From contig DWZJ01000022.1 in assembly GCA_019118245.1 (NCBI GenBank), positions 1 to 64,000 of the forward strand: a stretch of DNA of 64,000 bases. Reading direction: 5' to 3'. Numbering within the stretch: position 1 is the first letter of the stretch; every line of letters starts with the position of its first letter. This DNA comes from Candidatus Oscillibacter excrementigallinarum. GTDB taxonomy: Bacteria > Bacillota > Clostridia > Oscillospirales > Oscillospiraceae. Positions 16,085 to 40,711 of this stretch are shown in pieces. The position numbers and the translations under genes are program-made. The notes beneath the pieces were generated by a model. The model searched no databases. It saw nothing but the letters and a program-made list of their open reading frames with translations, and was not told the DNA's origin.

Positions 16085-16246
16085 CCCTAGAGAAATGGCG
16101 TGAGCCTGCCGAAGGAGTAAAACTCTCAGGCGTCCCGGCACGGGATGAGGACTAGGGATGGATGTGGCTCTGGAGAAGCCCGGCAACGGGGACCGAAGGT
16201 GCAAGGCGGTGTGATCCGCTGAATCTCTCAGGTAAAAGGACAGAGT
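16085..16246 (+). ncRNA. tandem glycine riboswitch (two aptamers)
   Basis: aptamer 1 CCCTAG...tgccgaaggagtaaaactctcaggc...CTAGGG (16085-16157); aptamer 2 ctctggagaagcc...accgaaggtgcaaggcggt...gaatctctcaggtaaaaggacagag (16168-16246); upstream of a Na+:Ala/Gly symporter. Confidence 0.93.
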
Positions 16247-16335
16247 GAGGTCATGGGGGCGCGAGGGTGCGCCCTGCGGGCTTTCTTTCCAGAGCGGCTG
16301 TGAGGCCGTTTTTATTTTTGGGAGGAGAGACCTAT

Positions 16336-20755: not shown

Positions 20756-20832
20756 GGGAGCATAGCTCAGCTGGTTAGAGCACCTGCCTTACAAGCAGGG
20801 GGTCACTGGTTCGAGTCCAGTTGTTCCCACCA
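20756..20832 (+). tRNA. tRNA-Val (TAC)
   Basis: cloverleaf GGGAGCA...CTTACAA anticodon loop...GGTTCGAGTCC...TGTTCCCACCA. Confidence 0.96.
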
Positions 20833-20844
20833 GAGTTTATACAT

Positions 20845-20921
20845 GGCCCGGTAGTTCAGTTGGTTAGAACGCTAGCCTGTCACGCTAGAGGTCGACGGTT
20901 CGAGCCCGTTCCGGGTCGCCA
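20845..20921 (+). tRNA. tRNA-Asp (GTC)
   Basis: GGCCCGG...CTAGC-CTGTCAC-GCTAG...GGTTCGAGCCC...CCGGGTCGCCA. Confidence 0.95.
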
Positions 20922-20924
20922 TCT

Positions 20925-20952
20925 CCCGCGAGATGGAGTTCCATCTCGTGGG
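20925..20952 (+). other. hairpin between tRNA-Asp and tRNA-Phe
   Basis: 12-bp stem CCCGCGAGATGG-AGTT-CCATCTCGTGGG then TCCCTTTTGG. Confidence 0.6.
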
Positions 20953-21006
20953 TCCCTTTTGGGGTTGAGATTCCCCGCCCGCGCCCGGCGGCGCGGAAAA
21001 AGATTT

Positions 21007-21082
21007 GCCCAGATAGCTCAGTTGGTAGAGCAGGGGACTGAAAATCCCCGTGTCGCTGGTTCGATTCCGGCTCTGGGCACCA
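21007..21082 (+). tRNA. tRNA-Phe (GAA)
   Basis: GCCCAGA...GGGGA-CTGAAAA-TCCCC...TCTGGGCACCA. Confidence 0.96.
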
Positions 21083-21085
21083 CCT

Positions 21086-21161
21086 GCGGGCATAGCTCAT
21101 CTGGTAGAGCGCCACCTTGCCAAGGTGGAGGTAGCGAGTTCGAGCCTCGTTGCCCGCTCCA
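21086..21161 (+). tRNA. tRNA-Gly (GCC)
   Basis: GCGGGCA...CCACC-TTGCCAA-GGTGG...TGCCCGCTCCA. Confidence 0.96.
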
Positions 21162-21162
21162 G

Positions 21163-21197
21163 ATGAAGTGCTCACACAGCGCGTGTGAGCACTTCAT
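21163..21197 (+). terminator. hairpin/terminator after tRNA-Gly
   Basis: 15-bp stem ATGAAGTGCTCACAC/GTGTGAGCACTTCAT then ATTTC. Confidence 0.65.
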
Positions 21198-21213
21198 ATT
21201 TCAAAAATAAATG

Positions 21214-21242
21214 TGGACTTTTTTGGAAAGTTCGCATATAAT
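21214..21242 (+). promoter_or_regulatory. promoter of tRNA-Cys
   Basis: TGGACT-17 nt-TATAAT directly upstream of tRNA-Cys. Confidence 0.6.
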
Positions 21243-21258
21243 ATAAAGGAACCCCCAT

Positions 21259-21333
21259 GGTGACATAGCCAAGTGGTAAGGCAAGGGTCTGCAAAACCCT
21301 GATTCCCCGGTTCAAATCCGGGTGTCACCTCCA
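21259..21333 (+). tRNA. tRNA-Cys (GCA)
   Basis: GGTGACA...AGGGT-CTGCAAA-ACCCT...TGTCACCTCCA. Confidence 0.95.
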
Positions 21334-38941: not shown

Positions 38942-38970
38942 TTGCAATCCCGACGGAAGTGTGCTAGGAT
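38942..38970 (+). promoter_or_regulatory. promoter of ABC-F leader transcript
   Basis: TTGCAA-17 nt-TAGGAT. Confidence 0.75.
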
Positions 38971-39006
38971 AGCCAGGAATCAAGAAATGAACGGAGGGGT
39001 GTGAGG

Positions 39007-39018
39007 ATGCGGATCTGA
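39007..39018 (+). CDS. 3-codon leader uORF (Met-Arg-Ile-stop)
   Basis: SD-like GGAGGGG upstream of ATG CGG ATC TGA; an in-frame GTG at 39001 could extend it to 5 codons. Confidence 0.45.
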   Translation: MRI

Positions 39019-39156
39019 GCTTTCATGTTTTGGCAGAATAGAAGGACGCTGCGGCGGAAACGCCGCCGGCTTCTCCATGCCATCACAGGGAAGGCAGACC
39101 GCTGATCTCACCCCGGTATCGCACGGCCCCGGACACGGGGCGGATGCTGTATGCCC

Positions 39157-39195
39157 GGCTGCGGGAGAGGTTTGCTCTCCCGCAGCCGTTTTTTG
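39157..39195 (+). terminator. leader intrinsic terminator (attenuator) upstream of ABC-F gene
   Basis: 13-bp perfect stem GGCTGCGGGAGAG-GTTTG-CTCTCCCGCAGCC then GTTTTTTG, ending about 25 nt before the start codon. Confidence 0.9.
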
Positions 39196-39217
39196 TTCTG
39201 CAAAGGAGGAATGCAAT

Positions 39218-40711
39218 ATGTCGATGATCGACGTCTCTGACCTGACATTTGGATATGAGGGCAGCCCGGAGCTGATCTTTGACCATGTGAGCTTTCAGAT
39301 CGACACCAGCTGGAAGCTGGGCTTCACCGGGCGGAACGGCCGGGGAAAGACCACCTTCCTGCGGCTGCTTCAGGGGAAGTACCCCTACAGCGGCACCGTC
39401 TCCGCCTCCGTGGCGTTCGAGTACTTCCCCTACGAGGTGACGGACCTGTCCCGGACAGGGCTGGAGGTGGTGCGGGAGATCGCGCCGGAGGCGGAGGACT
39501 GGGAGATCCAGCGGGAGCTGGGGCTGCTGGACCTGGCGGAGGAGGCCCTGGAACAGCCCTTCTCCGTCCTCTCCAACGGGGAGCGGACGAAGGTGCTGCT
39601 GGCGGCCATGTTTTTGAAGGAGAATGCCTTTCTGCTGATCGACGAGCCCACCAACCACCTGGACCTGGAGGGGCGGCGGAAGCTGGGGCGGTATTTAGCC
39701 CGGAAGCGGGGGTTCCTGCTGGTGTCCCATGACCGGGCGTTCCTGGACCAGTGCGTTGACCACATCCTGGCCATCAACCGGACCAACATTGAGGTCCAGC
39801 GGGGGAACTTCTCCTCCTGGTGGGAGAACCGCCAGCGGCGGGACGCCTTTGAGCTGGCCCGGCAGGAGAAGCTGCAGAGGGACATCGGCCGGCTGACGGA
39901 GTCCGCCCGGCGGGCCTCCGGCTGGTCGGACCGGACGGAGAAGAGCAAGTTCGGCGTGGACAAGACCGGCGCCAAGGCCGCGGACCGGGGCTTTGTGGGC
40001 CACAAGGCCGCCAAGCTGATGCAGCGGTCCAAATCCATCCAGCGCCGCCGGGAAGAGGCGGTGGAGGAGAAGAAACAGCTCCTGCAGGATCTGGAGCGGC
40101 AGGAGACGCTGACGGTCACGACTCTGCCCTGCCGGGCGGGAGTCCGGTTGGCGGAATTTCGGGATGTGGCCGTTCACTATGGCGGCCGCACCATCTGCCA
40201 GGGGGTGACCTTTGAAGTGCTGGCAGGGGAGCGGATCGCCCTTCAAGGCACCAACGGCAGCGGCAAGTCCAGCCTGCTGAAGCTGCTGCTGGGGGAGGAC
40301 ATCCCCCACAGCGGCACCGTGGAGACCATGAGCGGCCTGGTGATCTCCTATGTGAGCCAGAGCACGGACCACCTGCGGGGCAGCCTGACGGACTTTGTCC
40401 GGGACCAGGGCCTGGACGGCAGCCGGTTCCGGACCATCCTGCGGAAGCTGGACTTCCCCCGGGAGCAGTTTGAGCGGGACCTGGCGGACTACAGCAGCGG
40501 CCAGAAGAAAAAGGTGCTGCTGGCCGCCAGCCTCTGCACCCAGGCCCATCTGTACGTGTGGGATGAGCCGCTGAATTTCATCGATGTCATCTCCCGGATG
40601 CAGGTGGAGGACCTGCTGCTGGCCTGCCGGCCCACCCTGCTGTTCGTGGAGCACGACGCCCGCTTCTGCCAGGAGATCGCCACCCGGCACATCCAGGTGG
40701 CCCGGGCGTGA
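39218..40711 (+). CDS. ABC-F family ATP-binding protein (Lsa-like, ribosomal protection type)
   Basis: two ABC domains (GRNGRGKTTFLRLLQG; GTNGSGKSSLLKLLLGE), inter-domain linker, no TM; DEPTNHLDLEGRRKLGRYL. Confidence 0.9.
   Translation: MSMIDVSDLTFGYEGSPELIFDHVSFQIDTSWKLGFTGRNGRGKTTFLRLLQGKYPYSGTVSASVAFEYFPYEVTDLSRTGLEVVREIAPEAEDWEIQRELGLLDLAEEALEQPFSVLSNGERTKVLLAAMFLKENAFLLIDEPTNHLDLEGRRKLGRYLARKRGFLLVSHDRAFLDQCVDHILAINRTNIEVQRGNFSSWWENRQRRDAFELARQEKLQRDIGRLTESARRASGWSDRTEKSKFGVDKTGAKAADRGFVGHKAAKLMQRSKSIQRRREEAVEEKKQLLQDLERQETLTVTTLPCRAGVRLAEFRDVAVHYGGRTICQGVTFEVLAGERIALQGTNGSGKSSLLKLLLGEDIPHSGTVETMSGLVISYVSQSTDHLRGSLTDFVRDQGLDGSRFRTILRKLDFPREQFERDLADYSSGQKKKVLLAASLCTQAHLYVWDEPLNFIDVISRMQVEDLLLACRPTLLFVEHDARFCQEIATRHIQVARA

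Follow-up and report, generated by a model that had tools for sequence, protein, structure and literature searches.

A likely ribosome-mediated transcription attenuator upstream of an Lsa-like ABC-F gene in Oscillibacter

Short-uORF leaders of ABC-F genes

The VmlR leader contains a three-codon upstream open reading frame (uORF), MIN, which has been characterized by toeprinting and mutations (PMC9226507). Short uORFs have also been described for CplR (MR[I/M], and exactly MRI in C. difficile) and VmlR2 (MK[L/Q]) (PMC10201436) and for Are5sc (MLV) (PMC12421871), and the drugs concerned arrest ribosomes right after initiation with little context dependence (PMC9226507, PMC10201436, PMC12421871). 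In B. subtilis, the vmlR uORF lies in an anti-antiterminator hairpin, and arrest at initiation frees the antiterminator (PMC9226507). In the C. difficile cplR leader (CDIF630nc_084), a hairpin with the MRI uORF and then a terminator precede an ABC-F gene for PLSA resistance, and drug stalling on this uORF was shown to be essential (PMC10201436). A lincomycin-responsive terminator/antiterminator leader is likewise reported for Listeria lmo0919 (rli53) (PMC11550727).

The leader studied here lies in the window, the whole 64,000-nt stretch of Candidatus Oscillibacter excrementigallinarum DNA that was analysed, and has the same plan as cplR: an MRI uORF in a hairpin, then a terminator, then an ABC-F gene. 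The uORF matches the CplR-type consensus MR[I/M], but the gene is Lsa-like and not CplR, and the peptide match is probably convergent. Furthermore, the cplR terminator sits over the Shine-Dalgarno (SD) sequence of its gene, whereas the Oscillibacter terminator does not. The vmlR gene belongs to another ABC-F subfamily and differs in sequence, and its leader has pausing and an SD-sequestering hairpin (PMC9226507). Enterococcus lsa(A), the nearest characterized protein family, also has a short uORF, but its sequence, MAGN, is different (PMC10201436). The likeness to lmo0919 is one of description, and that gene is of the VgaL type, unlike the gene here (PMC11550727). The sequence-only reading of this locus had suggested that the very short uORF could mark a distinct leader class. 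That suggestion did not hold, because three-codon uORFs that drive ABC-F induction were already established for VmlR, CplR, VmlR2 and Are5sc (PMC9226507, PMC10201436, PMC12421871), and the Oscillibacter leader thus belongs to a known regulatory kind.

The Lsa-like gene and its conserved leader

The ABC-F gene (39218-40711, + strand, as are all features below) encodes 497 amino acids. The protein scored 445.5 bits against NCBIfam NF000355 (ribosomal protection-like ABC-F), above the curated cut-off of 380, in agreement with the sequence-only reading. By far the best-scoring model was NF000167 (Lsa), which matched over the full length at 692 bits; this is below the curated cut-off of 750, and the protein is therefore called Lsa-like. 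The closest solved structure was Lsa(A) (7nhk, E 2.5e-127), and the CplR model gave only 161.9 bits with a cut-off of 780, so the downstream gene is not cplR. The Lsa family is characterized by resistance to lincosamides, streptogramin A and pleuromutilins, which this protein may also confer. Homologues at E<=1e-120 were found in 38 of the 86 genomes of the genus. Close homologues of at least 86% identity were present in seven of the 86, the window included, and the closest named genome was Oscillibacter valericigenes An411 (94%). The flanks align on both sides among these seven genomes, which suggests that gene and leader were probably inherited vertically there. The reading frame of the gene is open through the whole terminator back to an ATG at 39077 (a 544-aa ORF; the additional part covers window positions 39077-39217). 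Gene callers may thus annotate an overlong protein and hide the leader.

The promoter consists of TTGCAA (38942-38947), a 17-nt spacer and TAGGAT (38965-38970), read by inspection, with an extended -10 element (TGC immediately 5' of TAGGAT). It agrees with the consensus at only 8 of 12 positions, which is why an automatic promoter scan gave no match, yet it is conserved in the sister genomes. The SD region of the uORF, GGAGGGGTGTGAGG (38993-39006), contains GGAGGGG (38993-38999), and is followed by ATG CGG ATC TGA (Met-Arg-Ile-stop; 39007-39018). Segment 1 (38996-39026) spans the SD, the uORF and 8 nt beyond, and pairs in the minimum free energy fold with segment 2 (39087-39114) to form P1, the anti-antiterminator. 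Within the P1 loop is a GNRA hairpin, GCGGCG-GAAA-CGCCGC (39051-39066). An intrinsic terminator (39156-39194) follows, with arms CGGCTGCGGGAGAG (39156-39169) and CTCTCCCGCAGCCG (39175-39188), loop GTTTG (39170-39174) and a TTTTTT run (39189-39194), at a dG of -31.2. The gene has its own SD, AAAGGAGG (AGGAGG region at 39204-39209), within a weak TGCA...TGCA hairpin, and starts with ATG at 39218. Direct reading thus confirmed where the sequence-only reading had placed the promoter, the uORF with its SD, the GNRA hairpin and the SD and start of the gene; its terminator stem and T-run were also correct, but the stem counted 14 perfect pairs and not 13.

We compared the leader across a clade of seven Oscillibacter genomes with the gene at least 86% identical, namely the window and six sisters. 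The promoter, uORF, P1 and terminator were kept in 6/6 sister genomes. The uORF, ATGCGGATCTGA, was invariant in 7/7 leaders, as was the GGGGTG of its SD region across the clade. The GNRA hairpin was retained in most members, with a shifted register in two of the leaders compared (L002 and L139). The sequence-only reading had proposed a check by leader alignment and covariation, and in the seven genomes P1 and the terminator together kept 94.6% of pair cells (0/500 shuffles were as high), with three pairs changed on both sides. P1 alone kept 82-97% of its cells with one such change, and in the terminator stem 100% of cells were paired with two compensatory pairs. The whole leader folded at -134.1 kcal/mol and its shuffles at -96.2 on average (z -8.3; 0/200 as low). 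Among 142 homologues placed on a protein tree, those with MRI leaders formed one clade with a support of 100; a neighbouring clade, which also has very short uORFs (MIR, MRK, MKNR, MIIQ), was joined with weak support. An Rfam search of the leader at gathering and relaxed thresholds gave no credible family match. Elsewhere, the window holds a single glycine riboswitch aptamer (16160-16253, 61.5 bits) and a tRNA cluster (20756-21330). A second, overlapping ORF (MFWQNRRTLRRKRRRLL..., from 39026) was considered as a leader peptide and rejected, as it has no SD and its start and frame are lost in the sisters.

The predicted antiterminator and a word shared by Lsa-type leaders

Part of segment 2, GGGAAGGCAGACC (39088-39100), the partner of the uORF region in P1, can alternatively form 12 of 13 pairs with GGTTTGCTCTCCC (39169-39181), which comprises the terminator loop and the start of the 3' arm. 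The terminator therefore mimics the uORF, and P1 and this antiterminator are mutually exclusive in predicted folding since they share 39088-39100. When nascent RNA ending at 39181 was folded, the antiterminator had a probability of 0.00 and the terminator 0.86-1.00 in 7/7 sequences. Masking from the AUG to +16 raised the antiterminator to about 1.00 in 7/7, a modelled flip consistent with the ribosome-dependent refolding that had been proposed, and three related leaders with other short uORFs (L009, L031 and L044, with MKNR, MIR and MIR) behaved the same way. These predictions ignore RNA polymerase, pausing and ribosome dynamics. The completed terminator was more stable than the antiterminator by 7-13 kcal/mol at equilibrium, also when a ribosome occupied the uORF, so antitermination would have to be kinetic. 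The energy of the antiterminator helix was only moderately unusual (shuffle p 0.0075-0.14), and within the seven-genome clade the helix showed no double-sided covariation. A pairing of segment 2 with the 5' arm of the terminator (TGATCTCACCC:GGGAGAGGT) was rejected, as it is strong in four genomes and lost in three (L137, L138 and L140).

The comparison was extended to 142 upstream regions of homologues, the window clade included, in which the distant proteins are about 46-63% identical. An SD-preceded start codon followed by TC[C/T]TGC at +9 to +15 occurred in 103/142 leaders. In 65 leaders the complement and a second copy of the word near the terminator were also present, and 64 of these kept both pairings, with C/T and G/A varying together across the three copies; as related sequences share ancestry, these counts are not independent. 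The arrangement, with the word TTTC[C/T]TGC in the uORF and in the terminator and its complement between, was found in Clostridia, Bacilli, Negativicutes and the plasmid gene lsa(E). Exact word/complement/word triples of at least 8 nt occurred in 30/142 leaders compared to 0/710 shuffles; the window clade was missed by this test because its word is imperfect. In the 30 exact-triple leaders, the antiterminator had a mean probability of 0.07 unmasked and of 0.95 once the ribosome site was masked. Two reading frames are used for the word, which encodes Ser-Cys in some uORFs (MRNFSC, MINLSC) and Phe-Leu in others (MNNFLAN, MYTFLRA); this indicates that the RNA is conserved and the peptide is not.

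The lsa(E) leader from an Enterococcus plasmid (NZ_KT448819.1; L194, positions 239-260), whose protein is 57% identical, follows the same plan: a uORF with an SD, a segment 2 complement and a terminator 3' arm that repeats the uORF word. Its uORF is MYNFSC with the word TTTCTTGC, where the window instead has GGATCTGAGCTTTC and GGTTTGCTCTCCC. We found no description of the lsa(E) leader in the literature searched. A search of 295 genomes for the Lsa-type leader pattern revealed no other regulated gene; matches in three genomes (G056, G194 and G287) were inspected and none was an attenuator before another resistance gene. In one genome (G121), the matches lie at contig ends, and one runs into an ABC-F gene. 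These two leaders (C6:17163 and C11:546020) are near-identical, and their matched stretch is identical also to that of another family (G295), which points to a mobile or repeated cassette. Another leader (L015) has, in the 360 bases before its match at 1501, two terminator hairpins (GAGCCGCAGGAGCTTTCCTGCGGCTCA) that are nearly identical and lie about 230 nt from each other.

In 30 Paenibacillaceae leaders (within L071-L136), an AUG stands directly before a stop codon (TAA or TAG in 25, TGA in 5) just 5' of the conserved word TTTCTTGC, for instance at -206 from the gene in L134 and at -202 in L077. For the five with ATGTGA, translation could alternatively start at an overlapping GTG. In the 25 with ATGTAA or ATGTAG, masking moved the mean antiterminator probability from 0.05 to 1.00. 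The start-stop state is clustered on the tree, yet explaining it takes as many as 16 changes, of which well supported branches force at least five. These apparent start-stop uORFs suggest that an initiating ribosome under arrest, and not a peptide, acts as the sensor. We therefore put forward, with the chances evenly balanced, that Lsa-type leaders sense no peptide but respond to an initiating ribosome, arrested by the drug, whose footprint covers a word 9-15 nt past the uORF start that is repeated in the terminator. If so, nothing would keep the uORF from becoming shorter, as with MRI in Oscillibacter and the bare AUG-stop of Paenibacillaceae, and no antibiotic-sensing reading frame could be smaller than AUG-stop. 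Neither this family rule nor the AUG-stop forms were found described in the literature searched, which covers few subscription papers.

Proposed mechanism, alternatives and meaning

We consider it likely that the leader is a drug-responsive, ribosome-mediated transcription attenuator of the Lsa-like gene. Without drug, ribosomes would complete the MRI uORF or come off it without delay, the SD and uORF (38996-39026) would pair with 39087-39114, and with segment 2 occupied in P1 the terminator would form and halt transcription before the ABC-F gene. We infer that a peptidyl-transferase drug, expected to be a lincosamide, pleuromutilin or streptogramin A, would arrest a ribosome at the uORF start, with a footprint to about +16 that hides segment 1 and blocks P1. 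The sequence at 39088-39100 would then capture 39169-39181 as it emerges, before the full terminator forms, and after read-through the ABC-F protein would be made and clear the drug. This drug-responsive reading appears well supported, both by the structure and by close precedent.

The same attenuator could instead use GCTGCGG (39048-39054) pairing with CCGCAGC (39180-39186) as its antiterminator, as the sequence-only reading had it, but we regard this as unlikely. The two segments are indeed complementary and keep 95.9% of pair cells in the seven genomes, one position being variously U-A, C-G or U-G, and the helix would cross P1 and thus likewise require P1 to open. However, in the ribosome state it was 4.7-23.6 kcal/mol weaker than 39088-39100:39169-39181 at every length in 7/7 genomes, it can form only if the local GNRA hairpin melts, it comes later in transcription, and one pair is broken in two genomes. 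The 39048-39054 word is also similar to the terminator 5' arm, a likeness that alone could account for the complementarity, and the helix differs from the rule seen across Lsa-type leaders. Another pairing in that reading, CTTCTCC (39070-39076) with GGAGAGG (39164-39170), is complementary with one G-U but is not kept in the sisters, which have ATTCGCC, CCTTTTCC and GGTTCCCC.

It is also quite unlikely that attenuation is mainly translational, by sequestration of the ABC-F SD, with the terminator secondary. This was indicated for C. difficile cplR, where uORF stalling is essential and premature termination is not (PMC10201436), and the weak TGCA hairpin (39199-39216) does surround the SD here. 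In the six sister leaders, however, roughly 100 nt separate the terminator from the SD, so that it does not reach over the SD, and conservation of the SD hairpin is only partial. Because induction itself is inferred and a three-codon coding part could in principle stall at any slow step, the leader might terminate and read through constitutively, or sense general translation arrest or a shortage of Arg or Ile instead of a drug. We think this very unlikely, as leaders that sense uncharged tRNA normally have runs of the sensed codons and the MRI uORF has none, as the uORFs of the relatives vary in sequence or consist of AUG-stop, and as tested ABC-F leaders of like anatomy respond to drugs (PMC9226507, PMC10201436, PMC12421871).

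With the attenuator proposed here, a ribosome-protection gene of gut Oscillibacter that is probably both vertically inherited and inducible joins a known regulatory kind, with a revised antiterminator. Comparison with its relatives also offers a simple rule for Lsa-type leaders, the clinical lsa(E) included, in which the terminator would copy the stretch of RNA covered by an initiating ribosome that a drug has stalled. With uORFs that vary down to an apparent AUG-stop, the need for a nascent peptide in the sensing of lincosamides, pleuromutilins and streptogramin A becomes directly testable.
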